Assembly: GCA_019118425.1 (NCBI GenBank)
Contig: DWYZ01000072.1
Span: 1-39,981 of the forward strand
Source: Candidatus Blautia faecavium
GTDB taxonomy: Bacteria > Bacillota > Clostridia > Lachnospirales > Lachnospiraceae
Reading direction: 5' to 3'
DNA length: 39,981 nucleotides
Within the stretch, counting starts at the first letter, position 1, and each line of letters starts with the position of its first letter. Made by a program: the position numbers and the translations under genes. Positions 8,807 to 37,176 of the stretch are shown here, piece after piece. The notes beneath the pieces are model-generated. The model was not told the DNA's origin and made no database searches. It saw nothing but the letters and a program-made list of their open reading frames with translations.

Positions 8807-8863
8807 GTGAAAGTTCACTTTCACATCTGCCATGATTGACGCGGCAAGTGTGCCAGAAGGAGG
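8807..8863 (+). repeat. Start-codon-proximal repeat element, copy A
   Basis: GTGAAAGT-TC-ACTTTCAC hairpin (8807-8824), then ATCTGCCATGATTGACGCGGCAAGTGTGCCAGAAGGAGGA; shares sequence and layout with 8870-8931, 22313-22375 and 37097-37176. Confidence 0.8.
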
Positions 8864-8869
8864 AATGTT

Positions 8870-8931
8870 TGGAAGCAAACTTCCATATCTACCATGATTG
8901 ACGCAGTAAAGTGCGTCGGAAAGGGGAAAAA
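8870..8931 (+). repeat. Start-codon-proximal repeat element, copy B
   Basis: TGGAAG-CAAA-CTTCCA hairpin (8870-8885), ATCTACCATGATTGACGCAGTAAAGTGCGTC with GACGCA/TGCGTC stem (8900-8917), then GGAAAGGGGAAAAA up to the ATG at 8932. Confidence 0.85.
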
Positions 8932-9261
8932 ATGCCAGAGATTTATTTAAATGATATCGCCCACGGACGCAGCGGGGATAAGGGAGATACCAGCAATGTT
9001 TGCGTATATGCGAGAAAGCCGGAGTATTACGAGATTATAAAAAGAGAGGTAACCCCGGAAAAGCTCCATGAATATTTTGGAGATATGGTCAAAGGAGAGA
9101 TCACCCGGTACGAGGTGCCAAGCCTTGGAGGCTTTAATTTCGTTATGAAGCACGCTCTCGGAGGCGGGGCGACCATGAGCCTTCGTCTGGATTCTCTTGG
9201 AAAGTCTATGGGAAGCGCGGTGATGCGCATGAAGATCCATGTGGAGGATGGAGAGATATAG
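8932..9261 (+). CDS. Small AtuA-associated protein (AtuA-like ferredoxin-fold / AtuA C-terminal-domain type)
   Basis: YLNDIAHGRSGDKGDTSNVCVYAR, GGGATMSLRLDSLGKSMG; directly follows AtuA. Start set to ATG 8932 because the track's GTG at 8911 lies inside the repeat hairpin. Confidence 0.8.
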   Translation: MPEIYLNDIAHGRSGDKGDTSNVCVYARKPEYYEIIKREVTPEKLHEYFGDMVKGEITRYEVPSLGGFNFVMKHALGGGATMSLRLDSLGKSMGSAVMRMKIHVEDGEI

Positions 9262-9283
9262 GACATAAAGAAGGAGGACGAGA

Positions 9284-10501
9284 ATGAAAGTACAGAATAA
9301 AAAATCAGATGTTCAGGCTCTGCAGAATTTAACAGTTCTCGATCTGACCAGAGTAGTTGCCGGTCCTTATGCAGGGGCGCTGCTGGGGGATCTGGGAGCC
9401 CATGTGATAAAGATCGAGATTCCAGGCAATGGAGATGATGCAAGAGGGTATGGCCCGTACGAACATGGGGAAAGCATGTATTATGCCAATCTGAATAGAA
9501 ATAAAAAAGGAATTACATTAAATTTAAAGACAGAGAAGGGAAAAGAAGTCTTTAAAAAGCTGGCTGCCAAGGCAGACATTATCATCGAAAATTACAGGCC
9601 GGGAGTTATGGATAAGCTTGGCTTAGGATATGATGTGCTGAAAGAGCTGAATCCGAAACTGATCTATGCGGCTGTGTCAGGCTTTGGATCCTATGGCCCT
9701 TATTCGAATCGGCCGGGCTATGATATTCTTTCCCAGGCAATGGGAGGACTGATGAGTGTCACCGGCTGCAAAGGCGGAGAACCCACCCGTTCCGGAAACG
9801 CCATGGGAGACATCCTTGGGGGAATGAACATGGTGATTGGCGTACTTGCGGCTGTGAATGCCAGAAACATCACAGGACATGGACAGAGAGTGGATGTTTC
9901 CCTTGTGGATTCTGTGGTGGCCAGTCTGGAAAATGCTTATGTACGTTATTTTAAATCTCATGAGATTCCGGTAAGAAACGGAAATGCCTATGCATCCATC
10001 GCGCCTTATGATACCTACCATGCAAAAGACGGCTATGTGGTGATCGCCTGCGGCAATCAGAAGCTGTATGAAAAGTTCTGCAACGAGGTAGTGGATATGC
10101 CATGGATGATCACGGATGAAAGATTTTTAACCGTTCCCCTGCGTGTGGAGAACAACGAGATCCAGAAGAAATACATAGAAGAGTGGACCATGAAATATAC
10201 CGTGGATGAAGTTGTGGACAAAGTGCTTTCCAAGGGAATCCCGGCAGGGCCTATCTTTAATGTAAAGCAGATCACAGAGGACGAGCATATCGCCAACGTA
10301 AGGGAAATGTTTATTGAAGTGGATCACCCTGTGATCGGGAAAATGAAGGTGAACGGGTGCCCCATCAAGCTGATGGAGACCATGCCGCGTATTAATTATC
10401 CGGGTCCGACTCTGGGACAGCACAATGAAGAGATCCTGGAGGGAATGCTGGGATATACGCCGCAAGAAGTACAGGAACTGAGAGAAGAAAAAGTGATCTA
10501 A
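9284..10501 (+). CDS. CaiB/BaiF family (class III) CoA-transferase
   Basis: LDLTRVVAGPYAGALLGDLGAHVIKIE, YANLNRNKKGITLNLK, IIENYRPGVMDKLGLGYDVLKELNPKLIYAAVSGFG. Confidence 0.95.
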   Translation: MKVQNKKSDVQALQNLTVLDLTRVVAGPYAGALLGDLGAHVIKIEIPGNGDDARGYGPYEHGESMYYANLNRNKKGITLNLKTEKGKEVFKKLAAKADIIIENYRPGVMDKLGLGYDVLKELNPKLIYAAVSGFGSYGPYSNRPGYDILSQAMGGLMSVTGCKGGEPTRSGNAMGDILGGMNMVIGVLAAVNARNITGHGQRVDVSLVDSVVASLENAYVRYFKSHEIPVRNGNAYASIAPYDTYHAKDGYVVIACGNQKLYEKFCNEVVDMPWMITDERFLTVPLRVENNEIQKKYIEEWTMKYTVDEVVDKVLSKGIPAGPIFNVKQITEDEHIANVREMFIEVDHPVIGKMKVNGCPIKLMETMPRINYPGPTLGQHNEEILEGMLGYTPQEVQELREEKVI

Positions 10502-10511
10502 GCAATAGCAG

Positions 10512-10550
10512 CAGGTACAGTTTTTGAATGCTTATCAAAGGCTGTACCTG
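10512..10550 (+). other. Intercistronic hairpin between CoA-transferase and thiolase
   Basis: CAGGTACAG (10512-10520) and CTGTACCTG (10542-10550) are perfect inverted repeats; no U-tract. Confidence 0.6.
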
Positions 10551-10570
10551 AGTTTGTAAAGGAGGACTGA

Positions 10571-11752
10571 ATGGAAAAAAAGATCGTATTAGCAGGAGCC
10601 TGCCGTACGCCCATAGGGAAAATGGGCGGAGCGTTAAAGGATGTTCCGGCGGTAACCCTTGGTTCTATTGTTATAAAAGAAGCAGTGAAAAGAGCCGGAA
10701 TCCTTCCGGCGATGGTGGAGCATGTCTATATGGGCTGTGTTATCCAGGCAGGCCTGGGGCAGAATGTGGCAAGACAGGCCGCGATAAAAGCCGGACTTCC
10801 AAAGGAGACCACAGCGGTGACTATAAATGCAGTCTGCGGCTCAGGACTGGACTGTGTGAATATGGCGGCGCAGATGATCCAGACAGGAGAGGCGGATATT
10901 GTAGTGGCAGGCGGAATGGAAAACATGTCCCAGGCTCCTTATGCCTTGATGAACGGCCGGTTCGGATACCGGATGAATGACGGCGCCCTTGTGGATACCA
11001 TGATCCATGATGCTCTCTGGGACGCATTTAACCAATACCATATGATGATCACGGCGGAAAACGTGGCAGAGAAGTGGAAACTTACCCGGGAAGAACTGGA
11101 CGCTTTTGCGGCTGTAAGCCAGCAAAAATGTGAAAAAGCCATGGAGGAAGGCAGATTCAATAAAGAGATCGTTCCCGTCAAAGTGAAAGTGAAAAAAGAA
11201 GAACGCCTCATTGATAAGGACGAAGCGCCAAGACCGGGAACCACCAAAGAAAAGCTCGCCGCCTTAAGATGCGCTTCCGGAAAAGAGGAAGGGGTAGTGA
11301 CTGCGGGGAATGCCTCCGGCATTAATGATGGAGCCGCTGCGGTAGTGGTGATGAGTGAGGAAAAGGCAAGGGAGCTAAAGGTGACTCCTATGGCTTATTT
11401 TTCAGCCGGAGCCCTGGGAGGGGTGGATCCGGCCATTATGGGGGTAGGGCCTGTGGCCTCTACCCGAAAAGTTCTGGATAAAACCGGGCTTACCATAGAA
11501 GACATGGACCTGATCGAAGCCAACGAGGCCTTCGCGGCCCAATCCCTGGCAGTAGCCAGAGAGCTTAAGTTTCCTTCAGACAAGTTAAACGTAAACGGCG
11601 GGGCGATCGCACTGGGCCACCCTGTAGGGGCCTCTGGCTGCCGGATCCTGGTCACTCTCCTTCATGAAATGGAGAGAAGAGACGCAAAGCGAGGCCTTGC
11701 TACCCTTTGTATAGGAGGCGGGATGGGATGCTCCACGATCGTGGAGCGGTAA
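10571..11752 (+). CDS. Acetyl-CoA acetyltransferase family thiolase
   Basis: AVCGSGLD nucleophile region, [36 protein letters not shown]. Confidence 0.96.
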
Positions 11753-11765
11753 ATAGATTGGAAAA

Positions 11766-11809
11766 TAAGCGCCTGACATCGGTTTAGCCGGTGTCAGGCG
11801 CTTTATTTT
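11766..11809. terminator. Bidirectional intrinsic terminator
   Basis: AGCGCCTGACATCGG-TTTAG-CCGGTGTCAGGCGCT with one G.T wobble, flanked by AAAATA and TTTATTTT, between convergent genes. Confidence 0.9.
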
Positions 11810-11821
11810 AGGACGGCATCC

Positions 11822-12376
11822 TTATTTTTGCAAAAGTCCACAGACTAGAACGAAATGATGAGGCAGCCGTCCTTCCTCCATCCATTCCAGCTTTAAGCCC
11901 ATAAGCTTTTCAATGGTAAGTCCCACATTTCCTCCCAGAGATTCGATAGAATACCGCATAGTTTCCGGATAACGGCAGGGAAGACCGTCCTTTTTTGCGC
12001 ATCCATTGCTGCATAGGGCACAGCTCCCCGCAGATAGACTGACGCTCCCCGGATATTTATTTTCCAGGAGAAACAGTTCATCGCTGAGCTTTTTCTTTTC
12101 CGGGGATAGAACCTTGTTTATGACGGCGTCCGCTTCCTCCTTCGTGTATTCTTTTGTCAGGACTTCTTCATCGAAAGTGATCTTAGAAGCCAAAAGCCGA
12201 AGGGTTTTATACTGTCTCCAGTATGAAAGCACATCGAAATCATAGGGCGGACAGGACCATACCTTATTGTAATTAGGACAGGCCTGACAGGCTTTTAAAA
12301 AGACTGGGACATCCACATACCCTTCTATATAGTCTGTTACAGAAACAGATGCTTCATGGCGGGTGACTGTATACAT
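11822..12376 (-). CDS. DUF2284 family putative metal-binding protein
   Basis: Cysteine-rich: CQACPNYNKVWSCPPYDFD, SAGSCALCSNGCAKKDGLPCRYPE. Start chosen as MYTVTRHEAS, preceded by AGGAGG on the minus strand. Confidence 0.8.
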   Translation of the reverse strand: MYTVTRHEASVSVTDYIEGYVDVPVFLKACQACPNYNKVWSCPPYDFDVLSYWRQYKTLRLLASKITFDEEVLTKEYTKEEADAVINKVLSPEKKKLSDELFLLENKYPGSVSLSAGSCALCSNGCAKKDGLPCRYPETMRYSIESLGGNVGLTIEKLMGLKLEWMEEGRLPHHFVLVCGLLQK

Positions 12377-12684
12377 AAAATACCTCCTGACAGAAAAGTG
12401 ATCGTGCAGTTTTATATATGCACATACAATGGGCTCCATTTTTATATGGGAGCCATAAAATTTTCTCAGGTCTATTATAACACGCGGAAAGGAAAAAGGG
12501 ACAGGTGTTTTTGGCTGGCCATATTTTTCAGCGGCAAAATAAGGAACGATCCCAGTGCGCACACAAAAAAGGAATTGGCTGCTCTTAAAGAAATCTGCTT
12601 GTGCGTGAAATCTGTGTATGATAGGATAAAAGCAGAGAATGGTATGGTTAAATTACATGGAGCGTATAAAAGAGGAGGCTTATT

Positions 12685-13509
12685 ATGCCAATCAAATTGA
12701 TTGTCAGTGATCTGGACGGAACCCTTCTGACAGAGAAAAAAGTAATATCTGATTATACGAAAGAAGCGCTTATGTACGCAATAGAAAAAGGCTGTCATTT
12801 CATACCTGCAACAGGAAGAGCGCTTGGCGCTGTCCCCAAGGAGGTGCTTCATTTTCCAGGAGTGGAATATGTGATCACTTCCAATGGAGCGGCAGTCTAT
12901 TCTGTATCTGAAGGGAAGCGCGTGTATCAATGCCGCATGTGCCCCGGCGCCATAGAGACAGTGGCTGGTCTGCCCAGATATCCGGAAGCGGCTTTAGAAA
13001 TTTTTATAGAAGGGATTCCCTATGGGCAGGAGGATTACATACAGGAACCGGAGCGGTTCGGCGCTACGTCCTTTGGAGCTGCATATGTGAAAAAAACGAG
13101 GATCAGCGTAAAGGACATCTATGCCTTTGCTCTGGAAAACAGAGAAAAAATAGACAGCATTGCCTTTGCTACTGCAGATCCGGCTGTAAAAGAAAAAATC
13201 AGGTCTATGCTCCTAAAGGAAGTAAAAGATATTTATGTAACCTCGTCTGTCTCCCATATGCTGGAGGCAGGCCATATAAATGCCGGGAAGGGAAATACTC
13301 TTTCTGTGATGCTGAAAAGACTTGGGATTACAGAAGAGGAGGCCATGGCCTTCGGAGACGGGGACAATGACATGGAAATGCTTTCTCTGGTAAAATATGG
13401 AATTGCCATGAAAAACGGATCAGAAAACTGTAAAAAATCCGCTTCCTATATCACTGAGACAAACGAGCAGAACGGGGTAGGAAAAGCCATTTATAAATTT
13501 GTCCTATAA
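12685..13509 (+). CDS. HAD-superfamily hydrolase, Cof-type
   Basis: VSDLDGTLLT motif I and AFGDGDNDMEML motif IV. Confidence 0.92.
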   Translation: MPIKLIVSDLDGTLLTEKKVISDYTKEALMYAIEKGCHFIPATGRALGAVPKEVLHFPGVEYVITSNGAAVYSVSEGKRVYQCRMCPGAIETVAGLPRYPEAALEIFIEGIPYGQEDYIQEPERFGATSFGAAYVKKTRISVKDIYAFALENREKIDSIAFATADPAVKEKIRSMLLKEVKDIYVTSSVSHMLEAGHINAGKGNTLSVMLKRLGITEEEAMAFGDGDNDMEMLSLVKYGIAMKNGSENCKKSASYITETNEQNGVGKAIYKFVL

Positions 13510-13542
13510 AAACAGAAACGATCAGAAAGGAGTGACCGATCT

Positions 13543-14394: not shown

Positions 14395-14431
14395 ATACGA
14401 CAAGAAAAACGGCGAAGCCTTCCCTGTTTTG

Positions 14432-14440
14432 TGGTATGAT
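14432..14440 (+). promoter_or_regulatory. Putative extended -10 promoter (TGG-TATGAT)
   Basis: TGGTATGAT upstream of DUF4867 gene; no clear -35. Confidence 0.4.
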
Positions 14441-14464
14441 CTTTTCAAAATAAAGAAGGATTAA

Positions 14465-14502
14465 AAAGCAGATCTTGTTCATCCTAAAAGGATCTCTGCT
14501 TT
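14465..14502 (+). promoter_or_regulatory. Leader hairpin upstream of DUF4867 gene
   Basis: AAAGCAGA (14465-14472) pairs with TCTGCTTT (14495-14502), nested inner ATCCT/AGGAT. Confidence 0.45.
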
Positions 14503-14536
14503 AAAAATCCGGAAAAAGAAAAGGAGGAGGTATATT

Positions 14537-15154: not shown

Positions 15155-15224
15155 TGAAAAATAGGAAGGGATGCCCCGAGGCAGGAAAGAAGCTGATCCG
15201 GGGATAAAGAAAGGAGATAAAATC

Positions 15225-16712: not shown

Positions 16713-16724
16713 AAAGAGCAGGAT

Positions 16725-16750
16725 GCATCCCGGGGGATTTCCCTGGGATG
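16725..16750 (+). other. Intercistronic hairpin between isomerase and xylulokinase
   Basis: CATCCCGGGGGATTTCCCTGGGATG imperfect palindrome; no U-tract. Confidence 0.6.
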
Positions 16751-16772
16751 TACCTATAATAAGGAGGAAAAC

Positions 16773-18233: not shown

Positions 18234-18349
18234 GCAACGAGACAAGCGGACATGCAAGCATGTCCATTTGGTGACTGCCGCGAGAATTTTGATTTAATCG
18301 AAGACGAAAAGTGGACGCGTGCCGGCAGGCATTGCAGACATCCCTTTAA

Positions 18350-19710: not shown

Positions 19711-19728
19711 CTGGCAATAGATCACATA

Positions 19729-22294: not shown

Positions 22295-22312
22295 AATACC
22301 GGAAGAAAAAAT

Positions 22313-22375
22313 GTGGAAGTATACTTCTAAATCTACCATTATTGACGCAGTAAGTGCGTCAGAAAAGAGGAAAAG
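22313..22375 (+). repeat. Start-codon-proximal repeat element, copy C
   Basis: GTGGAAGTATACTTCTAAATCTACCATTATTGACGCAGTAAGTGCGTCAGAAAAGAGGAAAAG ending immediately at the Pit ATG (22376). Confidence 0.85.
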
Positions 22376-23428
22376 ATGGACATATCAATTATTAGTTTTG
22401 CCCAGCAGCTAACATCTAATCCAGCACTGCTTGTCACTACATTGCTGACTTTAGGGGTTATTTTTGTAAATGGATGGACAGACGCGCCGAATGCGATCGC
22501 TACTTGTGTGACTACCAGATGCTTAAGGGCACGGACAGCTATATGGATGAGTGCGGCATTTAACTTCTTAGGCGTGTTTGTTATGACACAGATAAACAGC
22601 TCGGTTGCCGCTACAATCAGTAACATGGCGGATTTTGGAGAGGATACGCAGGGAGCGATGATTGCTCTGTGCGCAGCCTTATTCTCCATCGTGGTATATA
22701 GTGTGGGCGCTTCTTTTTTAGGAATCCCCACCAGTGAAAGCCATAGCTTGATCGCCGGTGTCACGGGAGCGGCTATTGCGATTCAACAGGGAGTCGGCGG
22801 GATTAATATGTCAGAGTGGGTAAAGGTTTTATACGGACTTGTTTTAAGCCTTGCCCTTGGGTTCCTTTCGGGATGGCTCATTTGTAAGCTGCTTACGATC
22901 CTGTGTCAGAATCTGGAGCGGAGGAAAGCGAATGATTTTTTCAGAATTGCTCAGATTGTAGGCGCCGCGGCGATGAGCTTTATGCATGGGGCGCAGGACG
23001 GACAGAAATTTATCGGCGTTCTTTTCCTGGGACTTGCCTTTTCCAATGGACAGAGTCAGGTATCCGGGATGGCGATCCCGATATGGCTGATGCTTTTGTG
23101 CAGTGTTGTGATGGGACTGGGAACCAGTGTGGGAGGAGAGAAGATCATCAAGTCCGTAGGGATGGACATGGTAAAGCTGGAAAAATACCAGGGCTTTTCT
23201 GCGGATCTGGCGGGAGCTTTTTGTCTGCTTCTTTCCAGCTTGTTTGGAATCCCTGTCTCCACTACCCATACGAAGACCAGCGCTATTATGGGCGTGGGAG
23301 CGGTAAGACGTATTTCCGCAATTAATTTTTCGGTTGTGAAGGATATGATGCTGACCTGGATTTTTACTTTCCCAGGGTGCGGCCTGATCAGCTTTGTGAT
23401 GGCAAAACTATTTATGTTCATCTTTTAA
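22376..23428 (+). CDS. Inorganic phosphate transporter, PiT family
   Basis: FVNGWTDAPNAIATCVTTR, GIPTSESHSLIAGVTGAAI, MSFMHGAQDGQKFIGV, GIPVSTTHTKTSAIMGVG. Confidence 0.95.
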   Translation: MDISIISFAQQLTSNPALLVTTLLTLGVIFVNGWTDAPNAIATCVTTRCLRARTAIWMSAAFNFLGVFVMTQINSSVAATISNMADFGEDTQGAMIALCAALFSIVVYSVGASFLGIPTSESHSLIAGVTGAAIAIQQGVGGINMSEWVKVLYGLVLSLALGFLSGWLICKLLTILCQNLERRKANDFFRIAQIVGAAAMSFMHGAQDGQKFIGVLFLGLAFSNGQSQVSGMAIPIWLMLLCSVVMGLGTSVGGEKIIKSVGMDMVKLEKYQGFSADLAGAFCLLLSSLFGIPVSTTHTKTSAIMGVGAVRRISAINFSVVKDMMLTWIFTFPGCGLISFVMAKLFMFIF

Positions 23429-24394: not shown

Positions 24395-26083
24395 TTAGAA
24401 TAAACCAGTGATCTTGCCGTTTTCATCTACATCGATCTTTTCGGCTGCCGGAACTTTTGGAAGGCCTGGCATGGTCATGATCTCGCCGGTCAGGGCTACG
24501 ATGAAGCCGGCTCCTGCGGAGATCTTTAAGTTACGTACAGTAACTTCGAAATCTGTCGGCGCTCCGAGTTTGGTCTGGTCGTCGGTCAGGCTGTACTGGG
24601 TCTTAGCTACACAGATCGGGCAGTTGCCGAAACCGAGGGCTTCCAGTTCTTTGGCCTGTTTCTGTGCGTTAGCTGTAAGGACTACCCGCTTGCCGCCGTA
24701 GATTTTCTGTACGATCTGGTTCAGCTTGTCTTCGATAGAGCCGTCCAGTTCGTAGGAGTAGCTGAAAGCATCGTTTGGCTCTTCGCAGAGACGGATCACT
24801 TCTTCTGCAAGTTTGATTCCGCCTTCTCCGCCTTTTGCCCATACTTCTGAAAGGGCTACGTTTACGCCCAGCTCCTTGCATTTCGCTTCTACCAGGTCAA
24901 GCTCTGCCTTGGTATCGGTGGGGAATGCGTTGATAGCTACTACGCAGGGCAGTTTGTATACGTTTGTGATGTTGCTTACATGCTTTAACAGGTTTGGAAG
25001 GCCTTTCTCCAGTGCTTCCAGGTTTTCGTTGTTAAGGTCTGCCTTGGCAACGCCGCCATTGTATTTCAGGGCACGTACGGTAGCAACGATGACTACTGCG
25101 TTTGGCTTTAAGCCTGCCATACGGCACTTGATGTCCAGGAATTTCTCTGCGCCAAGGTCCGCACCGAATCCAGCCTCTGTGATGGTGTAGTCAGCAAGCT
25201 TTAAGGACATCCTGGTGGCTGTCACAGAATTGCAGCCGTGAGCGATGTTTGCAAACGGGCCGCCGTGTACGATGGCCGGTACATGCTCCAGGGTCTGTAC
25301 CAGGTTCGGCTTTAAGGCGTCTTTCAAAAGAGCGGTCATTGCGCCTTCTGCGTGCAGGTCTCCTGCGGTAACCGGTTTCTGCTCGGAAACTTTTCCGTAT
25401 GTATAGCCAATGATGATCCTGGAAAGTCTTTCTTTCAGGTCCTTGATGTCGCTTGCCAGACAAAGGACTGCCATGATCTCGGAAGCTACGGTGATGTCAT
25501 AGCCGTCCTCACGGGGCATGCCGTTTGTCCTTCCGCCAAGGCCGTCTACCACGTTTCTAAGCTGGCGGTCGTTCATATCCACGCATCTTCTCCAGGTGAT
25601 CTTTCTTGGGTCGATGTTCAGCGCATTGCCCTGGAAAATGTGGTTGTCGATCATGGCTGCCAGAAGGTTATTGGCTGCGCCGATGGCATGGAAGTCGCCG
25701 GTAAAGTGCAGGTTGATATCCTCCATGGGGACTACCTGCGCATAGCCGCCTCCTGCAGCACCGCCCTTTACTCCGAATACTGGTCCAAGGGATGGCTCAC
25801 GAAGGGCAACCATTACGTTCTTGCCGAGTTTCTGCATTCCGTCTGCCAGACCTACTGTTGTGGTGGTCTTTCCTTCTCCTGCAGGAGTAGGATTGATAGC
25901 CGTTACCAGGATCAGCTTGCCGTCCTCTTTATCTGTTTCTTTTAAAAGATTATAATCAATTTTTGCTTTGTACTTTCCGTACTGCTCCAGGTATTTGTCA
26001 TCAATACCTGCTTTTGCTGCGATCTCGGTGATTGGCAGCATTTCGCACTCTTGTGCAATCTCAATGTCTGTTTTGAATCCCAT
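24395..26083 (-). CDS. fhs: Formate--tetrahydrofolate ligase
   Basis: [87 protein letters not shown]. Confidence 0.98.
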
Positions 26084-26142: not shown

Positions 26143-26178
26143 AAAAAAGGACAGTATTTGATCAATTCAAATACTGCC
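26143..26178 (-). terminator. Intrinsic terminator/attenuator in fhs leader
   Basis: Minus strand GGGCAGTATTTG-AATTGAT-CAAATACTGTCC followed by TTTTTT. Confidence 0.85.
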
Positions 26179-26246
26179 CAGACGGTCGGCTATTCACAAG
26201 TCTCTGATTCCCTTGTGGTTCTCTCCACTATTTCCGTCAGTAACCA
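26172..26246 (-). promoter_or_regulatory. Probable ZTP riboswitch (pfl motif) upstream of fhs
   Basis: Minus strand GTTACTGACGGAAATAGTGGAGAGAACCACAAGGGAATCAGAGACTTGTGAATAGCCGACCGTCTGGGCA resembles the pfl motif as recalled, with the CCGNCTGGGCA 3' segment merging into the terminator; fhs is an expected target. Confidence 0.8.
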
Positions 26247-26483
26247 AAGACTTTTTTCATTTAACGAATTTATCCTAACATTTTTTGAAAAAATTGTCAA
26301 GCTTTTATCAATATTTATTCTATTTATTCTTTTCATAAAAATTTTATAATTGGAAAGGTTGCTATCTCCTGAGAGTATGCTAGAATAGAGAGCAAAGCTG
26401 TATCCTGTAAGGAGGCCTTTCGGCAACGTATGTAAGCGGGATGTAGTATGTATGAAAGAGAAATATTGTGGAGACCGCAGATT

Positions 26484-26918: not shown

Positions 26919-26925
26919 AAATTTT

Positions 26926-27186: not shown

Positions 27187-30100
27187 ATGAAGAGAAAAAA
27201 GAAAATGTTAAAAAGTCTGGGAGCAGGTATGCTTGCGGCATTGTTTCTGGTACAGGCAGTTTTTGGAATTTTGCCGCCCATTGAGGCCAGAGCGGCCATT
27301 TCAGCCATTGAAGAGTGGGATGAAAATCACATTATGGATTATAAATACCGCTTCAATGTAAAATTTCAAAAAGGCGTTACCACAGTGGAGCCCTTTGGCT
27401 GTGACAACCAGGATGTGGAGGCACTGACGAATCATGGAAGGAATACTCTCCGGGTATATACGAAGAGGATGACCGGGGATTATGTGCCGGGAAGCGCGGG
27501 GGTACGGTATAATAATGTAGGAAAAGACGGTGAAGGGAATATCGTAGACCTTAAGCTGAGCGTAATGGGAGTCACAGGAGCAGAACCACGGTACGATATG
27601 TTTACCCCATATTACAAATTCCATCTGTGGAAAGATCCTCAGGAAGATACGGGAGATGGCTATGACTGGGAAAATGGAATGGGGCAGCCTGTGGTGGGCT
27701 TTGGAAAAGAGGCGATTGCCATTGCTACCTATTGCATCGGCTCTGTAAAGGTGCGCTACCAGTTTTATAAGCATGGCACGGACGAGCCTCTTTCCATCAG
27801 CGGCCACGGCACTGCCAGGGACCTGGACGCGGGCCAGGGGATATCCATACCGGAGGACAGCAATCTGGAAAATGTATATATCCTGAAGGGAAACCGTTTT
27901 TTGGAGGTAGACGGCACCTATGTACAGGCCGGGGACGGTTCTTTGGAGACTTCAGATAAGTCAGGCTGGGTAAATATGCTCTACGATACAGACACCATCC
28001 ATTTTAACTTCCATCACCAGAGCCGACTGGACCGGTGGGATAAGGAACGGGAAGACGGAATCGCTAAAAGAGGATCCGAAGAAAACTGGGCGAGGCTTCT
28101 GCGCAATACATATGTAGATGAGGATGGGAACAGTTATTGTGGGAATTACTATGGCGGAAAGATCGTAAGAGGACATGCTTATTTTGATTTTACCTCCTAC
28201 TGCTTTGGCGGGATCGCCATGGAAAAGGAACCGGAAAAAAGGGTAGGAGCTTCCGGCTGTGCCTGGGAGGACGGTATTGTTACAAGCAAGGAAAACGCTT
28301 TTCCTATCTATGAATTTGAAGAATTTCAATATATGATCCAGGCAGAGGTTACCCCTAATCATTTAAGCTCCTTTGTAGTGCAGGATACACTGAAAGATTG
28401 TCTGGCTATCGATGGAACCTCTAAAGTGATCATAAAAAATGACCTGGGGGAAGAGGTGACCGGTCAGTTCCATATCACCATTGACGGGCAGACAGTCACC
28501 TGTGCGGCAAAAGAAGAATTTTTAAAGGAAGAAAGTTTTACGGACAATCAGGTATATACCTTTTATCTTAGGGTGCATCGTAAAGAGGGAGCCGATGTGT
28601 CGGACTTCCTGGATCCTGACGGCTATACCTTCCGGATTCCCAATTCTGCGGATCTGACCTACGTCCGGGCAAATGGAAAGGGAGGAACCATGACCACGGA
28701 TACCGTCTGGGTGACAGGAAAGATCATTCCGGATCTGATAGTGGAAAAGAAGGCCTCCAAATATGAGTGGAATGTAGGGGACCAGGTGGACTATACGGTT
28801 AAGGTCACGCAGAAAAAGCCAAACGCGTGGGCAGTAAATACAGTGGTGGAGGACTTGTCTCTTCCTTCCTGCCTGTCCTTGATGGACGGACAGTATTTTG
28901 TAGAAAGTACACCGGGAGTTGAGCATTGTGTGATAGCGAAAGAAGGGGAAAACGGCTGGCGTGTAACCTGTCCTCTCCTTCAGTATGATGAAAGCATCCA
29001 GATAACCTTCCGCTGTATAGCCGAGGCAGAAGGAAACGGGCAGGAATGGATCAATACAGCTGCGGCAAGAGCGGAAAACTATATGGACGAGCGTACCGGA
29101 GCGCCTAAAGAGGCAAAGGATATGGCGGAGGTATGGCCCAATACCCCGGATCTGCAGATTGATAAGACTGCGGATAAATATGAATGGAGAGTTGGAGATC
29201 AGGTCAGTTACCGGGTTGTAGTTACCAACACGGCTCCGGGCACGATCGCCAGAGAGGTTTATATATCAGATATCGGACTCCCGGAGGGGCTGGTGCTTTC
29301 CGGAGGAACTGCCTCAGTAGAAGTATTAAACGCGCCTGTTCAGGTGGATTATCCCATTCCGGACAGGAAAACAGGGCAGGCGGCAGAAGTACGGCAGGTG
29401 GCCACCGCGCTGGATGCGGATGAGAGAGGATGGAACTTTTACTGTTCCTATCTGCCGTATAGCCATCCTGTTACGATCCTGTTTCACTGCACGGCCACAG
29501 AGACCTGCAATGGGCGGGAAAATATAAACGCAGCCACTGTCCAGGCGGAAAACGCGGCAGAAAAATCAGACGATGCAAAAGCGTATGTAAATACAGGCGC
29601 TTTTTGGATAGAAAAGACTGCAGATCATTATGAATGGCAGGTAGGAGAAGCAGTGGAGTATCAGGTAGTGGTGACAAACCAGTTCCCGGGAACCATTGCA
29701 AGAAATGTGACGATCTGGGACACCTCCATGCCTGCAGGACTAGCTTTGACTTCGCCGGAGGGAGTGTCTATTGAAGGGATTCCGGAGACGATAGCGGATC
29801 CTGTGGAAGGCACGAAAGATCCGGAAAGTCAGTTAAATCCCGAGCTGTATCAGGAAACTGCCGCCAAACAGGTGGCCTGGGAATTTCTTCCTGAGGGAAA
29901 TGGATGGCGTTTGAATCTTTCTGATCTTCCGGCAGGCACTCCGGTAACCATTCGTTTTTCCTGTACAGCGACAGAAGCTGTAAATGGAATGGAAAGCATC
30001 AACGCGGCCTCTGTCCAGGCAGAAAATGCCCCGGAGGAAACAGACGACGCAGAAGTATACGTAAATACAGCGGTTCTTTCTATTGAGAAGAATGTAAGAA

Positions 30101-32823
30101 ATCCTTATCTGGAACTGGGAGACGGAAGAAACGCAAATGAATTCCGGGTAGGGGAGAAGGTGGAGTATGAGGTTATTGTAAATAATCTGCAAAAAGGTTC
30201 CATTGCCAGAAATCTGGTGGTGAGCGATGTGTCCCTTCCGGAAGGCCTTGCGCTGGATCAGGACGAGGGCGCGCTTACCGTATCCGGAATCCCCCAGACA
30301 ATTTTAAACCCGGTGGCTGGAACGGATGACATGGGAAACCAGCTGGATCCGGAAAATTATAATCAGGTGGAGGAAAAGCCTGTGGAATATCAGCTGGTCC
30401 GTCAGGGAACCGGATGGGTGCTCCAGGTGTCAGACCTTCCCTATCAGACGCCGGTTTCTATCGTGTTTCGATGTACCGTGACAGAAGAGTTGAATGGCTG
30501 GGAAGTGATAAACACAGCGAAGGCCTGGGCTTCAAACGGAGCAGAAGTAAGGGGTACCTCTAAGATCTGGGTAAATACGCCTGTATTAAAAATGGAAAAG
30601 ACAGCGGATAAACCTACCTATAAGTATGGGGATATTGCCACTTATCGGATCCGGGTATGGCAGGAGCAGCCGGGCTGTGTGGCAAGAAATGTGACCATAA
30701 GCGATGTGATCGATACTCCTGGCGTCCGCCTTTTAAAGGATTCGATCGTTCTGCTGAATGAAAATGGAGATCTCGTTGAGGCGGGAGTAGAGGCAAATGA
30801 CGACAATACCTTCCGTGTACTCACCGGACGGCCATTGCTGAGCGAAGGAATGTACTCTGTTTATGACGGAGAAGGAGGAGGCGCCTTTGAACAGGTTCTC
30901 CAAAATCCGCTGGAGCTGACCAGTGAAAAAGAGATGATCGTAGAGTATCAGATGGCTGTCATTGACGAAAATCTTGCGGGACAGACCGTACATAATATAG
31001 CCGAAGTGACCAGCGAGGAAGGCTATCCTGCCCAGGATGAGGAGACGGTGGAAATCCACAGTCCGATCCTGGATATCGTAAAGGAATCCGACCAAAAAGA
31101 ATACCACGTGGGAGAAACCGGATACTATAAGCTTACAGTTCGCCAGCTGAGAGAAGATGTAACCGCGGAGAATGTGGTGATCGAAGACGCGCTGGATCAT
31201 CCTGGAGCAGTTCTTTTAACAGAGAGTATCCTGGTAAAGAAAAATACAGAAGTTTTAAAAGAGGCGGCAGTAGAAGCTTCTGCCAGCGGTTTTCGTATTG
31301 CTACCGGAACCAATCTGACGGATGGAGACAAGCTGGAAATTTTTTATAATGTTCTTTTTGAAAGTCCGCAGCTTGATCAAGTGTCAGTCGTAAACCGGGC
31401 TTGGGCCAAGGGGGACAATACACCGGAAGAAATCGCAGAAAATGAGGTATTTATAGGAGATATCCGTCCGGTATTTTCTATTGAAAAGAAATCTGACAAG
31501 GACGGATATCTTCCCGGCGAAACAGGAACCTATCAGGTAAAGGTGACCCAGACAGAGAAAGACGCGGTTGCAAGGAATGTGGTGCTGAGAGACATCCTGA
31601 AAAACGAAGGAGCTCAGATCATAAAGGATAGTGTGAAGCTATATGACGAAAATGGCGTAGAGTTAGATAAACCGGAAATAGAAGCTACAGAAAAGGGATA
31701 TACCATACATACAGGAATGGAGCTGGCGTATCAGCAGTTTCTCCTGGCAGAGTATCAGGTCAGGTTTTTGGAAGAGGCAGACGGAGGAAAACTTTTGAAT
31801 GTAGCTATGGTTACTGGGGATAACTTAAGGCCGCAGGAAGAAAAACCGTCAGATCCGGTGTCAGTGGGAGACGGCCTGACTGCATTAAAGACTTCCGACC
31901 CGCCTTCCGGGAGTATTGTAGCAGAAGGAGACCCTATTCTCTATTCCATTACAGTAAAGAATAACTCCAAGGAGGAGAGGAAAAATATTATGATCAAAGA
32001 TGCTCTGCCGGAGCATGTACAATTTGATTCTTTTGGAGAAGAAGAGGGCGAGCTCCTTACTTTGGATGAAAAAACCTATGCCGCCTTTTTTATAGACGAG
32101 CTTAAACCGGGAGAAGAGAGGACCGTCACATTTAAAGTCCTGCGCGCAGAGGCGCAAAGGGAGGACTGTATCGTAAATCTGGCTCAGGTGCGTTCGGCAA
32201 TAGCCTCGCGGGAGGATGTGACCGAAGAAACCTGGAAATCTCCGAGATTTTTTAATACAAATGCGACCGTGCATTATGCAGATACCATCTGGACGCGCAC
32301 AGAGCATGAGGTGGAAATTGGAGAGATGGAGCCTACAGGAACGCCTGCGCCTACAGGAACGCCTGCTCCTACAGAAACGCCTGCTCCTACAGAAACGCCT
32401 GCTCCTACAGAAACGCCTGCGCCTACGGAAACACCAGTTCCAACAAAGACGCCGGTTCCCACCCCTACAAAGGCGCCTACGGGAACGCCTGTGCCTCCTA
32501 CAGGAACGCCTGTGCCTACGAGAGTTCCCTCACCTTCGCCTACCTTACGTCCTACTGCCGCGGAATGTCCCAGGATCACCCCGGTTCCCACGAGGACGGC
32601 GACCGGCCTTTACGGAGGAAATACCAATTATCCGTCTTCCGGAAGCGGATTTTCTTCTTATGGCAGCAGTTATCAGGGAACTTCCTATGGAGGAGGAACG
32701 AAGACTGGTGAGGAAAGACCTTTTAAAGATATGGCAAAAATTGCAGGGGCAGGAGCCTTGCTCTTAGGTCTTGGGATTTTCGTTTACCGGAGAAATAAAA
32801 AGCAGGAGGAGAATAAAAAGTGA
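27187..32823 (+). CDS. Large cell-wall-anchored surface protein with about 8 DUF11-like Ig repeats, Pro/Thr stalk and C-terminal sorting signal
   Basis: Signal peptide (MKRKKKMLKSLGAGMLAALFLVQAVFGILPPIEARA), repeated 'xIxKxADxYEWxVGDxVxYxVxVTN' units, PTETPA stalk, and KTGEERP + AGAGALLLGLGIFVY + RRNKK tail. Confidence 0.88.
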   Translation: MKRKKKMLKSLGAGMLAALFLVQAVFGILPPIEARAAISAIEEWDENHIMDYKYRFNVKFQKGVTTVEPFGCDNQDVEALTNHGRNTLRVYTKRMTGDYVPGSAGVRYNNVGKDGEGNIVDLKLSVMGVTGAEPRYDMFTPYYKFHLWKDPQEDTGDGYDWENGMGQPVVGFGKEAIAIATYCIGSVKVRYQFYKHGTDEPLSISGHGTARDLDAGQGISIPEDSNLENVYILKGNRFLEVDGTYVQAGDGSLETSDKSGWVNMLYDTDTIHFNFHHQSRLDRWDKEREDGIAKRGSEENWARLLRNTYVDEDGNSYCGNYYGGKIVRGHAYFDFTSYCFGGIAMEKEPEKRVGASGCAWEDGIVTSKENAFPIYEFEEFQYMIQAEVTPNHLSSFVVQDTLKDCLAIDGTSKVIIKNDLGEEVTGQFHITIDGQTVTCAAKEEFLKEESFTDNQVYTFYLRVHRKEGADVSDFLDPDGYTFRIPNSADLTYVRANGKGGTMTTDTVWVTGKIIPDLIVEKKASKYEWNVGDQVDYTVKVTQKKPNAWAVNTVVEDLSLPSCLSLMDGQYFVESTPGVEHCVIAKEGENGWRVTCPLLQYDESIQITFRCIAEAEGNGQEWINTAAARAENYMDERTGAPKEAKDMAEVWPNTPDLQIDKTADKYEWRVGDQVSYRVVVTNTAPGTIAREVYISDIGLPEGLVLSGGTASVEVLNAPVQVDYPIPDRKTGQAAEVRQVATALDADERGWNFYCSYLPYSHPVTILFHCTATETCNGRENINAATVQAENAAEKSDDAKAYVNTGAFWIEKTADHYEWQVGEAVEYQVVVTNQFPGTIARNVTIWDTSMPAGLALTSPEGVSIEGIPETIADPVEGTKDPESQLNPELYQETAAKQVAWEFLPEGNGWRLNLSDLPAGTPVTIRFSCTATEAVNGMESINAASVQAENAPEETDDAEVYVNTAVLSIEKNVRNPYLELGDGRNANEFRVGEKVEYEVIVNNLQKGSIARNLVVSDVSLPEGLALDQDEGALTVSGIPQTILNPVAGTDDMGNQLDPENYNQVEEKPVEYQLVRQGTGWVLQVSDLPYQTPVSIVFRCTVTEELNGWEVINTAKAWASNGAEVRGTSKIWVNTPVLKMEKTADKPTYKYGDIATYRIRVWQEQPGCVARNVTISDVIDTPGVRLLKDSIVLLNENGDLVEAGVEANDDNTFRVLTGRPLLSEGMYSVYDGEGGGAFEQVLQNPLELTSEKEMIVEYQMAVIDENLAGQTVHNIAEVTSEEGYPAQDEETVEIHSPILDIVKESDQKEYHVGETGYYKLTVRQLREDVTAENVVIEDALDHPGAVLLTESILVKKNTEVLKEAAVEASASGFRIATGTNLTDGDKLEIFYNVLFESPQLDQVSVVNRAWAKGDNTPEEIAENEVFIGDIRPVFSIEKKSDKDGYLPGETGTYQVKVTQTEKDAVARNVVLRDILKNEGAQIIKDSVKLYDENGVELDKPEIEATEKGYTIHTGMELAYQQFLLAEYQVRFLEEADGGKLLNVAMVTGDNLRPQEEKPSDPVSVGDGLTALKTSDPPSGSIVAEGDPILYSITVKNNSKEERKNIMIKDALPEHVQFDSFGEEEGELLTLDEKTYAAFFIDELKPGEERTVTFKVLRAEAQREDCIVNLAQVRSAIASREDVTEETWKSPRFFNTNATVHYADTIWTRTEHEVEIGEMEPTGTPAPTGTPAPTETPAPTETPAPTETPAPTETPVPTKTPVPTPTKAPTGTPVPPTGTPVPTRVPSPSPTLRPTAAECPRITPVPTRTATGLYGGNTNYPSSGSGFSSYGSSYQGTSYGGGTKTGEERPFKDMAKIAGAGALLLGLGIFVYRRNKKQEENKK
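32332..32457 (+). repeat. 18-bp tandem repeat encoding PT(E/G)TPA stalk
   Basis: Units CCTACAG(G/A)AACGCCTGC(T/G) repeated about 5 times, followed by two diverged units. Confidence 0.9.
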
Positions 32824-33659
32824 AATGGCTCCGTTCCATTGGACTGGCAATGACAGGGGCGGCGGCAGGACTGCTCTTTTATTCCGGAAGCTTTTTTGTG
32901 AAAAGTTATCTGGAAAACCAGCAGGCCCGGGATAAGTATGAAGAAATCCAGGAAACATACACTGCTTTTGAGGAAGAGGAAAAGGATCCTGTTCCTCAAA
33001 AGAAAAAAACAGAACCTGTTTTATCCGTCCTGCCTGTGTCGCCGGCTCCGAAAAAGGAGATCGAGGAATCCTTTGGAATCCATTGGAAAGAACTTCGTCA
33101 GGTTAATCCACAGATTGCCGGTTGGGTACAGATTCCTGGCGGCGATATTTCCTATCCGGTGGTACAGGGGGAGGACAATAGTTTTTACCTTTCCCATTCT
33201 TTTGAAAGAAAAGAGGACCTTTTCGGAACCATCTTTCTGGATTGGCGGAATGGAAAGCGTTTCCAGGATTCCCACAGCTTTCTTTACGGCCATAATATGG
33301 AAGGAAATATGATGTTTGCTAACCTGAACCGATATGAAAGCCAGGAATACCTGGAACAATGCCCGGAGATTTATCTGTACACACCCTGGAAGAAATACCG
33401 CTATCTTATTTTTTCCGTGGAGCAGGCAGAAGAGGGCAGTACAAGCTTTTCTTACGGACAGAAGCTGAAAAGCACGGAGTTTAAGGACTTGCTGCAATAT
33501 ATGAAGAACCGCTCTTTTTATGACACAGGGGTGGAGCCGGAGGCGTTTGCTCCTATTCTGACCCTTGTGACCTGCAATTCCCGCCTGGACGAGAATATCC
33601 GGATGCTCGTCCATGGCACGCGGGTGGAAACGTGGAGCTGGAATGAAGAGGGAGAGTAG
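32820..33659 (+). CDS. Class B sortase
   Basis: WVQIPGGDISYPVVQGEDNSFYLSH, SFLYGHNM (His), LTLVTCN (Cys), RMLVHGTR (Arg); N-terminal TM. GTG start overlaps the upstream TGA (GTGA). Confidence 0.93.
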   Translation: MKWLRSIGLAMTGAAAGLLFYSGSFFVKSYLENQQARDKYEEIQETYTAFEEEEKDPVPQKKKTEPVLSVLPVSPAPKKEIEESFGIHWKELRQVNPQIAGWVQIPGGDISYPVVQGEDNSFYLSHSFERKEDLFGTIFLDWRNGKRFQDSHSFLYGHNMEGNMMFANLNRYESQEYLEQCPEIYLYTPWKKYRYLIFSVEQAEEGSTSFSYGQKLKSTEFKDLLQYMKNRSFYDTGVEPEAFAPILTLVTCNSRLDENIRMLVHGTRVETWSWNEEGE

Positions 33660-33684
33660 ATGCGCGTCCCTTTGGCTGTACAAA

Positions 33685-33825
33685 GCGTTTCAGAAGATAA
33701 ACGGCTACAGCATTATCCTAAAAAATATAGGAAACAGCCGGCAAAAAGAGGCGAAATGTCAGGAAGAGCTTTTGCAGAAGGAAATTGACGGGCTGATCAT
33801 AAGAGATTCCTGCAGGAAGAGATAA
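33685..33825 (+). pseudogene. araR: Fragment of AraR-like (LacI-type effector domain) transcriptional repressor
   Basis: NGYSIILKNIGNSRQKEAKCQEELLQKEIDGLII resembles the start of the effector domain of GntR/LacI-hybrid AraR proteins; no HTH and no C-terminal remainder. Confidence 0.6.
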
Positions 33826-33835
33826 AAAATTTAAA

Positions 33836-34778
33836 GGAGGATTTACAGACGGAAGGAGACAAGGTAGAGACTCAGATCAAGTTTGGCTGGGAGATTAATG
33901 CCTATCCGGTGAATGAGATCGCAGAATATGTGCAGGATGTAAAAAAGGCGATATTGATGTTTTGGTGGAAGAATATTATAATAAGTATGAAATCCTTCTG
34001 GAAGGACGCGACCCGGAGGAGTTCAAACGTCATGTAGAAGTACAGGAAGGAATTGAGATTGGATTTGAAAGATTCCTGGAGGAAAAAAATTACCAGGCAA
34101 TTGTTGTTCATTTTGGTGATCTTGGCTCTTTGAAACAGCTCCCAGGTCTTGCCATCCAAAGGCTGATGGAGAAAGGATATGGTTTCGGAGGGGAAGGAGA
34201 CTGGAAAACAGCCGCTATGGTGCGTCTCATGAAAATCATGACTGCTAAAGTCAAGGACGCGAAAGGTACATCCTTTATGGAAGACTATACTTACAATCTT
34301 GTTCCTGGCAAGGAGGGAATCCTGCAGGCCCACATTCTTGAAGTGTGCCCCTCTGTCGTGGAAGGGAAAATTGCCATTAAGGTGTGCACTCTTTCCATGG
34401 GTGACAGAGAAGACCCCGCAAGGCTGGTATTTACTTCAAAGGAAGGCCCTGGGATCGCCGCCTCCCTCATAGATCTTGGTGACCGTTTCCGTCTGATTAT
34501 CAATGATGTAGAGTGAAAAAAGGTAGAAAAAACCATGCCCAAGCTGCTGGTAGGCACTGTGTTCAGGACCCCCCAAGCCGGATTTTGCCACAGGAGCGGA
34601 GGCATGGATCTTAACCGGAGGAGCCCATCATACGGCATTTTCTTATGATCTTAGCGCAGAGCAGATGGGAGACTGGGCAGCCGCTATGGGAATCGAAGCT
34701 GTCTGCATTGACAAAGATACAACGATCCGCAATTTCAAAAATGAACTGAGATGGAATGAAAGCGCGTTCAGGAAATAG
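33836..34778 (+). pseudogene. araA: L-arabinose isomerase pseudogene (5'-truncated, two frameshifts, one in-frame TGA)
   Basis: Pieces in three frames reconstruct AraA: TEGDKVETQIKFGWEINAYPVNEIAEYV..., YYNKYEILLEGRDPEEF...LGSLKQLPGLAIQRLMEKGYGFGGEGDWKTAAMVRLMKIMT...RFRLIINDVE(TGA)KKVEKTMPKL, ATGAEAWILTGGAHHTAFSYDL...TTIRNFKNELRWN. Confidence 0.9.
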
Positions 34779-34819
34779 GGCGGACGTAAATTACGATTGG
34801 ATTATTGGAGGATTTTACA

Positions 34820-36424
34820 ATGGGTGTTATGGAAGCAAAAGCAGCAATTCTGAACAACAAAACTGCATTGGGCATTGAATTCGGATCCACCAGGATCAAG
34901 GCGGTCCTGGTAGACGATAAGAATGAGCCGATTGCCTCTGGAAGCTATGATTGGGAAAATAAGTACGTGAACGGAATCTGGACTTATGACCTGGACGAAA
35001 TCTGGAAAGGCCTGCAGGGCAGTTATCAGGATATGGCCAATGATGTAAAAGAAAAATATGAGGTAGAGCTTACCAGTGTAGGCGCTTTAGGCATCAGCGC
35101 CATGATGCATGGCTATATGCCTTTTAATAAAGAAGGAGAGCTTCTCGTACCTTTCCGTACCTGGAGAAATAATATCACAGGGGAAGCTTCTGAAAAACTG
35201 ATGGAATTGTTTAATTACAACATTCCCCAGAGATGGAGCGTGGCTCACCTCTATCAGGCGATCCTGAACAAGGAAGAGCATGTAAAAGATATCGACTATA
35301 TCACCACCCTGGAAGCTTATGTTCACTGGAAACTGACAGGAAGAAGAGTAGAAGGCATCGGAGATGCGGCGGGGATGTTCCCCATCGATACAGAGACGAA
35401 GGACTATAATGAAACTATGGTCCAGAAGTTTGACGAGCTGGTGGCTCCTTATGGCTTCCCGTGGAAATTCAGGGATATCATGCCTAAGGTGCTGGTAGCT
35501 GGAGAGGATGCCGGATATCTGACGGAAGAAGGCGCGAAGCTTTTGGATGTTACCGGTAAGCTGAAAGCCGGCATTCCTATGTGTCCTCCGGAAGGAGACG
35601 CAGGAACCGGAATGGTAGCTACAAACAGCGTAAAGGTGCGCACAGGAAATGTATCTGCGGGAACTTCTGTTTTTGCCAATATTGTTTTGGAAAAAGAACT
35701 TTCCAGACCATATAAGGAGATCGACATGGTGACTACACCGGCGGGAGATCTGGTGGCTATGGCTCATTCCAATAACTGTACTTCTGATCTGAATGCCTGG
35801 GTAAATGTTTTTAAAGAGTTTGCAGAGTCCATGGGAATGGAAGTGGATATGAATAAATTGTTCAGCACTCTTTATAATAAAGCCATGGAAGGAGATGTGG
35901 ACGGCGGCGGACTGTTGTCCTACTGTTATTTCTCCGGAGAGCATATGACCGGGTTTGAGGAAGGACGTCCTTTGTTTGTGCGTTCACCGGAAAGTAAATT
36001 TACTCTTGCCAACTTTATGCGTACCAATCTTTATACCTGCCTGGGAGCTATGAGAGTAGGGTTAAACCTGTTATTCGAAAAAGAGGATGTAAAAGTTGAC
36101 CGGCTCTTAGGCCACGGCGGTTTGTTCAAGACAAAGGGCGTAGGCCAGCAGATCCTCGCAGACGCAGTAAACGCTCCGGTTTCCGTAATGGAAACTGCCG
36201 GAGAAGGCGGCGCATGGGGAATCGCTCTTCTGGCTTCTTACCTTGTAAACAAGGAAGAAGGAGAGACTCTGGATCATTTCCTGGATGAAAAGGTATTTGC
36301 AGGAAACGAAGGAAGCACCTTAAATCCGGATCCTAAAGGCGTGGAAGGCTTTAACGTATTTATGGAGCGGTATCAGAAAGGACTTGGAATCGAAAGAGCG
36401 GCGGTAGAGTCGGAAGTTTGGTAA
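34820..36424 (+). CDS. FGGY-family carbohydrate kinase, probable ribulokinase-type
   Basis: [80 protein letters not shown] 34820 after TTGGAGG; adjacent to araA remnant. Confidence 0.85.
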
Positions 36425-36430
36425 AAATGT

Positions 36431-36486
36431 GAGGGGGAATCCGTTTAAAGCCGGAGGAGGCTTGAGGGGGTTCCCCTTTTGCTTTT
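36431..36486 (+). terminator. Intrinsic terminator after FGGY kinase
   Basis: AGGGGGAA...TTCCCCTT outer stem with inner AAGCC/GGCTT, followed by TTGCTTTTT. Confidence 0.7.
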
Positions 36487-36589
36487 TATATGCAGCTAAA
36501 AATAAAGAAGAGCATTGACTATATTGCTGCTAAATGATAGTGTTTAAACAATAAACTGTGTATGAAAATTTAAAAATGGAGGGGTGGAA

Positions 36590-37042
36590 ATGTTGCTCTA
36601 TCATGGAAGCAAAGAACAGGTGAGATTTCCTAAAATCAGAAAAGCTGTATTTAATAAAGATTTTTATTTTGGATTTTACTGTACTTTACAGGAAGAACAG
36701 GCGGTACGCCAGGCTGCGCGTTTTTATAATAAGTGGTATTTGAATATTTATGAATATACACCGAACCGAGATTTAAAATATCTGCGGTTCCATAAAATAA
36801 CAGACGAATGGCTGGATTTTGTAGCGTCCTGCCGTTTGGGAAATGGACATTCCTATGACATCGTAGAAGGTCCCAGGGCAGATGAGACAATTTTTAATTA
36901 TGTCCAGAACTTTGTAGATGGAAAAATATCCCGAAGTGCATTTTGGAAATTAGCAAAATATAATCATCCAACATACCAGATTAGTTTTCATACGATTTCT
37001 GCATTGGACACACTTGAATTTATAGAAAGCAGGGAAGGATAG
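36590..37042 (+). CDS. DUF3990-like protein (possible ADP-ribosyltransferase-fold)
   Basis: LLYHGSKEQVRFPKI...DFYFGFYCTLQEEQAVRQAARFYNK resembles DUF3990; RBS GGAGGGGTGG before ATG 36590. Confidence 0.7.
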   Translation: MLLYHGSKEQVRFPKIRKAVFNKDFYFGFYCTLQEEQAVRQAARFYNKWYLNIYEYTPNRDLKYLRFHKITDEWLDFVASCRLGNGHSYDIVEGPRADETIFNYVQNFVDGKISRSAFWKLAKYNHPTYQISFHTISALDTLEFIESREG

Positions 37043-37096
37043 ATAAAGGTGTACTCTCTTATACCTGCGGTCTAACAGAATATACAGGAGAAATGT

Positions 37097-37176
37097 GTGA
37101 AAGTAAACTTTCACATCTACTATTATTGACGCAGCCAATGTACTCCGTGAGTAAAGTGCGTCAGAAAGAGGAAAAA
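37097..37176 (+). repeat. Start-codon-proximal repeat element, copy D (with internal insertion)
   Basis: GTGAAAGTAAACTTTCACATCTACTATTATTGACGCAG[CCAATGTACTCCGTGA]GTAAAGTGCGTCAGAAAGAGGAAAAA ending at the BrnQ ATG. Confidence 0.85.

Follow-up and report, generated by a model that had tools for sequence, protein, structure and literature searches.

A two-hairpin repeat family at start codons in Lachnospiraceae, probably a dispersed mobile element that brings its own Shine-Dalgarno sequence

Introduction

Rickettsia palindromic elements insert inside reading frames and are tolerated there, as their structure keeps expression possible. The family described here is likewise a palindromic repeat tolerated in genes, but it inserts just before reading frames. 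It was encountered as four copies in 39,981 nt of DNA from Candidatus Blautia faecavium (GCA_019118425.1, contig DWYZ01000072.1, positions 1-39,981, forward strand; this whole stretch is referred to as the window), and each copy is a non-coding unit of two hairpins, joined by a conserved linker and closed by a Shine-Dalgarno sequence (SD). Our reading is that the family is probably a non-autonomous dispersed mobile element, docking at SD/start-codon sites and bringing an SD of its own.

Several described systems resemble it in part. Repetitive extragenic palindromic elements (REP/REPIN, with RAYT, also TnpA-REP) are found mostly downstream of genes (PMC3733652). The present family is similarly short, palindromic, present in many copies per genome and diversified into genome-specific variants, most copies having a GTAG-like motif on the bottom strand beside the foot of hairpin 1, but unlike REPs it has an SD of its own and stands, always in the same orientation, ahead of start codons. 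With non-autonomous derivatives of IS200/IS605 (PATE-like) it shares subterminal hairpins, a fixed orientation to the target and little or no target duplication, whereas its target is an SD/start-codon context and no autonomous relative was found. BOX, RUP and SPRITE of Streptococcus pneumoniae are small structured interspersed repeats of ~30-125 copies, patchy among species (PMC3049150). Size class, structure, interspersed copies and patchiness are thus held in common; BOX and RUP, however, end in terminal inverted repeats and duplicate their targets, whereas the present family has no such repeats and no duplication beyond 2 nt, and they are not described between an SD and an ATG with an SD of their own. 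Finally, the TAACTGA direct repeats of Beggiatoaceae are intergenic, most of them no more than several nt from a start codon, with no functional pattern downstream and a mechanism that is unknown (PMC4679880). Proximity to start codons and the lack of a theme in downstream genes are shared with the present family, but those repeats are heptamer arrays in a setting where canonical ribosome-binding sites are rare, as opposed to a two-hairpin unit that supplies one. The literature search, with most subscription journals and preprints outside its scope, found no description of the two-hairpin family itself.

Copy number and architecture

Copies were counted with a covariance model (R1), seeded with 69 copies from the host genome (G000) and several other Lachnospiraceae; the model excludes the ATG, although its seed copies were picked beside a start codon, and its E-values are rough. 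The host genome is a fragmented metagenome-assembled genome (MAG) of 3.5 Mb, ~92% complete, and gave at least 141 matches, a lower bound because 150 candidates were scored. With up to three mismatches allowed, a search for the linker ATCTACCATKATTGACGCA gives four matches in the window, where 100 shuffles give none; the host genome has 115 such matches, and the reversed control has one.

The element is ~52-90 nt long and is ordered, from 5' to 3', as hairpin 1, the TACC-containing linker, hairpin 2 and the SD. Preceded by AA and followed by NN and ATG, a copy is laid out as GTTTGGAAG-TAAA-CTTCCAAA-TCTACCATTATT-GACGCA-gcaag-TGCGTC-AGAAAGAGGWAA. Hairpin 1 has eight pairs and a four-base loop, variable in sequence and conserved in pairing; the linker (AUCUACC-AUUAUU, core UACC) is conserved and single-stranded; hairpin 2 has six pairs, in host-genome copies often with a loop insert of 18-19 nt; and the purine-rich 3' end AGAAAGAGGWAA is the SD, ~5 nt before the ATG. 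The two ends of the element, GTTTGG and GAGGWAA, do not form an inverted repeat. Weak pairing between the CC of the linker and the GG of the SD appears in predicted folds. The copies in the window, with the genes that they very probably serve, are as follows.

8805..8865, + strand: copy A, the decayed upstream partner of copy B in tandem; R1 62.9 bits
8806-8813/8818-8825, +: copy A hairpin 1, intact; 8838-8843/8849-8854: copy A hairpin 2, degenerate
8856-8864, +: copy A SD-like GAAGGAGGA, abutting copy B
8867..8931, +: copy B; R1 81.2 bits, fold z -3.92
8868-8875/8880-8887, +: copy B hairpin 1 (one mismatch); 8888-8899: linker; 8900-8905/8912-8917: hairpin 2
8920-8926, +: copy B SD AAAGGGG, then ATG 8932 of the AtuA_ferredoxin protein
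8932..9261, +: open reading frame (ORF) of the AtuA ferredoxin-like partner, PF23544 8.5e-29 (copy B SD)
22311..22375, +: copy C; R1 85.7 bits, fold z -4.15
22312-22319/22324-22331, +: copy C hairpin 1; 22332-22343: linker; 22344-22349/22355-22360: hairpin 2
22363-22370, +: copy C SD AAAAGAGG, then ATG 22376 of the Pit/PHO4 transporter
22376..23428, +: Pit/PHO4 phosphate transporter ORF, PF01384 2.2e-81 (copy C SD)
37095..37176, +: copy D; R1 83.8 bits, fold z -4.24
37096-37103/37108-37115, +: copy D hairpin 1; 37116-37127: linker; 37128-37133/37157-37162: hairpin 2
37141-37145/37149-37153, +: mini-hairpin in the hairpin 2 loop insert of copy D
37165-37171, +: copy D SD AAAGAGG, then ATG 37177 of BrnQ
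37177..38493, +: BrnQ branched-chain amino-acid transporter ORF, PF05525 4.5e-142 (copy D SD)

All four copies are present where the original prediction had placed them, although the element begins a few nt earlier than it had proposed, at about GTTTGG/GTGTGA. Its view that the element's end supplies the SD of the AtuA partner, Pit and BrnQ agrees with the SDs located at 8920-8926, 22363-22370 and 37165-37171, whilst its claim that the copies sit on start codons stands for B (8932), C (22376) and D (37177) and falls for the decayed upstream copy A. This copy begins 1 nt past the stop codon of the AtuA ORF (7436-8803) and, with a fold z of -0.76, folds no better than shuffles, against -3.9 to -4.2 for the other three. 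The 18 extra nt in the hairpin 2 loop of copy D form a small third hairpin, common to many host-genome copies.

Both hairpins covary. Four pairs of hairpin 1 have both sides changed in the first alignment, and the addition of subfamilies from other genomes brings double changes to 6 of 8 pairs in hairpin 1 and 4 of 6 in hairpin 2, so that the compensatory changes first proposed for hairpin 1 are borne out and extend to hairpin 2. In this extended alignment 99 double-changed cells compare with 23 +/- 3 in shuffles, and 95.7% of cells are paired compared with 18-53% in slid controls, the covariation figure being inflated since the alignment was fitted to the structure. Exchanges of whole pairs are visible by eye (GACGCA/TGCGTC, GCCGCA/TGCGGC, GGCGCA/TGCGCC, GGCAGGT/ACCTGCC), and the TACC of the linker is retained in nearly all of these variants. 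More divergent forms were also seen: genome G028 (loci L169-L176) has a cousin family of 52-58 nt whose hairpin 1 is shorter (GCCC-AA-GGGC) and whose hairpin 2 is rich in GC, with three units in tandem at L172, and G030 (L181-L184) has a second divergent subfamily, ATCTACCTTTATGGCAG..CTGCC..AGAGGAAAGTATG, besides the main type.

A chance likeness among ribosome-binding regions, or an artefact of assembly, might be suspected given that all SD regions are purine-rich and that the host assembly is fragmented. This explanation is refuted by the empty shuffles, the single reversed-control match and the covariation, and by records without a MAG label that contain exact copies of the linker (such as Eubacterium sp. 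An11 and Hominisplanchenecus faecis CLA-AA-H246), leaving it a negligible probability. Nor is the element a named RNA family: as the original prediction had supposed, no match to it reached the gathering threshold in Rfam 15, where the one family found in the window was a ZTP riboswitch at another place. At a permissive E-value the best overlap was the ylbH leader (24 bits against the 50 needed, E 0.05). Overlaps with this leader at L177 (422-530, reverse strand, 24 bits) and L114 (428-523, reverse strand, 20 bits) fall below the threshold of 50 and are judged to be chance, and identity with the ylbH leader was rejected. The family was to have been abandoned if covariation or further copies were lacking, or if Rfam contained a match; covariation and further copies were found, and no Rfam family matched above threshold.

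Position and neighbouring genes

Placement of the element relative to genes is strict. All 93 inspected host-genome copies were read in sense orientation; in 87 of them an ATG stands where the model predicts a start, compared with 7% of random 6-nt stretches, and in 81 an ORF of at least 60 codons begins within one base of the model end. Copies in other genera are placed similarly, before start codons. The bases 5' of the element are purine-rich and end in AA in more than 80% of copies. Several of the non-ATG exceptions precede ATA or an ATG with an early stop; ATA at the expected start position was noted at L014, L129, L265, L268 and L275, and such copies possibly mark decayed start codons or insertions before AT.

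A co-directional ORF ends within 200 nt upstream of 63 of 84 copies, with a median gap of 25 nt, and most copies therefore probably lie inside operons; the same count argues against a promoter role. Also rejected was a small ORF that would extend from TTGACG into the gene, as its reading frame is not conserved between copies. No functional theme was found among 20 downstream genes of the host genome, which include ClpP, DHFR, RecD2, xylulokinase (XylB), TrpF and Maf, and the equally unrelated PtsI, IolD, fumarase, Pit, BrnQ and the AtuA partner; in other genomes the element precedes DnaE (dnaE), adenylate kinase (adk), peptidyl-tRNA hydrolase (pth) and TsaB (tsaB). The downstream genes, some of them essential, are thus unrelated, and the association with one pathway that would mark a metabolite riboswitch or regulon leader was not found among them. 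Because they include dnaE, adk, pth, tsaB, clpP and DHFR, and because the native SD would be displaced by 60-90 nt, the SD of the element very probably drives translation of the gene behind it.

Empty sites and distribution

Orthologous loci, which the original prediction had proposed to compare, lack the element in relatives at ClpP (29 of the 29 relatives shown), DHFR (13 of 13 shown), Pit (copy C; 7 of 7) and BrnQ (copy D; 7 of 7 inspected). At ClpP the filled site reads gcgaatggagacgta[element]aaATG against an empty gcgaatggaggcatgtatATG; in a longer view the host has gccagcgaatggagacgta[element]aaATGAGTTTAGTA, and most relatives have forms such as gccagcgaatggaggcatgtatATGAGTTTGGTA. The native SD is retained upstream, the insertion lies 2-3 nt before the ATG, and comparison of empty with filled sites leaves at most ~2 nt of duplicated host bases. 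Four of the empty relatives (G009, G026, G028, G055) have the element at other genes, and positions therefore differ between carriers. Tandem arrays in the host genome have the lower R1 score in the upstream member in 9 of 10 cases; the ATG-proximal copy is either the youngest or the sole one still under selection.

Across Lachnospiraceae the family is patchy. R1 counts within the genus are 141 in the host, 27, 18, 10, 9, 6 and 2 in others, and 0 in several complete genomes, and 12 of 299 genomes in a sample of the family were positive at E <= 1e-6, some with at least 17 copies; both scans used stricter filters than that of the host and capped the number of candidates scored, so that their low and zero counts are lower bounds. 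Carriers known as MAGs include Scybalocola, Fusicatenibacter, Anaerobutyricum and Mediterraneibacter, and no element was found in 38 genomes scanned from other families of the order. Carriage by phage or plasmid was rejected, with no copy in viral contigs (exact 19-mer search) or in phage and plasmid records (blastn). For 72% of copies the nearest sequence lies in the same genome, against 23% after shuffling, which fits the expectation if copies amplify within genomes. Among the three roles first suggested (mobile 5' untranslated region cassette, translational control element, protein-binding RNA), the cassette is best supported, by copy number, patchiness, empty sites, genome-specific clusters and the like placement of copies in other genera. 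Translational control or protein binding may be functions acquired in addition.

Some copies are truncated at the 5' end (L227, at G000:C309; L228, at G000:C36; L085, L099 and L104), with hairpin 1 mostly or wholly gone and the linker, hairpin 2 and SD retained at the start codon. A longer autonomous copy was sought among linker matches without an R1 match and rejected, as those fetched (C309, C36) are these short truncated copies. Their intact 3' ends, together with the strict sense orientation, would suit a retro-copied RNA, reverse-transcribed into start sites and leaving truncated copies as incomplete products. This is very unlikely: the host, the top carrier, yielded no RVT_1 reverse transcriptase at ~92% completeness, and deletion of a hairpin accounts equally well for truncation.

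Mechanism and alternative explanations

What was observed directly comprises the copy number and architecture of the family, its covariation, the position and orientation of its copies, the empty sites, the want of any long target duplication, the tandem arrays and the clustering by genome; the mechanism that we favour goes beyond these observations. A trans-acting enzyme would insert the element at purine-rich, SD-like sites, in sense, between the native SD and the start codon. The supplied SD would keep the downstream gene translated and make insertion nearly neutral; it would also recreate the landing site, giving rise to tandem copies, with the one nearest the ATG usually in the best state of preservation. 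Insertions elsewhere would be removed by selection, and copies kept only where their own SD preserves translation. Whether this amounts to a class of mobile element that lands on the translation initiation site itself, recognising the SD/start-codon context, always in sense, replacing the displaced SD and recreating the landing site, is to our minds evenly balanced. If true, an element of this kind could reach ~4% of the genes in a genome, among them essential genes. Small dispersed repeats usually persist in non-coding gaps or gene tails, whereas this family sits at a gene's most sensitive point, and apparently survives in the gap between SD and start codon through its substitute SD. In some lineages, and not in their sisters, a few per cent of genes would then have had their 5' leaders rewritten, providing a natural experiment on leader structure and translation, and possibly a site-specific insertion activity at ribosome-binding sites.

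A narrower version of the same explanation, whose probability overlaps with that of the broader one, names the enzyme: an IS200/IS605- or REP-type palindromic element that a Y1 (HUH) transposase, supplied in trans, would process in single-stranded form. Hairpins are subterminal at both ends without inverted terminal repeats (alignments A1 and A3; pair counts), target duplication is nil or at most 2 nt (ClpP) and orientation is fixed, as among IS200/IS605 elements and the miniature inverted-repeat transposable elements (MITEs) derived from them. Most copies have GGTAGA on the bottom strand beside the foot of hairpin 1, resembling the guide sequence GTAG of REPs, the purine/AA sequence is similar at both element boundaries, and Y1 genes are present in the host genome. 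Yet GTAG is not invariant, with GCAG and GTAT variants common (CTGCC and ATACC on the top strand), and REPs lie mostly downstream of coding regions (PMC3733652), the opposite of a family in which 87 of 93 copies stand directly before ATG. Among 27 Y1_Tnp loci from carriers and non-carriers, searched with R1, none has element ends around the gene, so that neither a repeat-flanked RAYT nor a Y1-bearing element with matching ends was found in the same or related genomes; the nearest approach is in G221, where an unrelated copy and a Y1 fragment are ~1 kb apart. Y1 genes are commoner in some element-free genomes (14, 13 and 6 against 1-4) and their numbers do not track copy number. Mobilisation by the host genome's own IS200/IS605 transposases was rejected, as element ends are not shared, and the Y1 version as a whole is tentative and somewhat improbable. 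An integron attC-like site was also considered and rejected, its boundaries being a misfit by eye.

The chief rival is a regulatory RNA, in which a protein or small ligand would bind the linker and hairpins and tune access to the SD, the ~141 genes forming a post-transcriptional regulon grown by leader recruitment. Sense orientation and the fixed distance to ATG speak for it, as do a structure held by covariation around an unpaired linker conserved in sequence, which would suit a binding protein, and an SD beside hairpin 2 with weak linker-CC/SD-GG pairing. It has to contend, however, with 20 downstream genes that lack a theme, orthologues without the element even in other carriers, patchiness within one genus, clustering of copies by genome, and tandem decayed and 5'-truncated copies, and we regard it as unlikely. 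The mobile-element reading has difficulties of its own. The search for a mobilising enzyme found none, RVT_1 being absent from the ~92% complete MAG and the Y1 loci lacking the element's ends, and the genomes compared, no two of them strains of one species, showed neither a transposition event nor polymorphism between strains. Strict placement at start codons could reflect selection for a beneficial leader instead of targeted insertion, the strong conservation of the linker across genera could mean a regulatory RNA-binding site, and the zeros and low counts in the distribution are lower bounds only.

Other features of the window

Two further features were noted in the window. The ZMP/ZTP riboswitch (RF01750, 63 bits) lies at 26169-26254 on the reverse strand, 5' of a formate-tetrahydrofolate ligase-like ORF at 24395-26083. 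The ORF of 1878 aa at 27187-33659 is repeat-rich and surface-protein-like, its tail rich in proline and threonine, and a sortase-like ORF comes after it, both recognised by eye.

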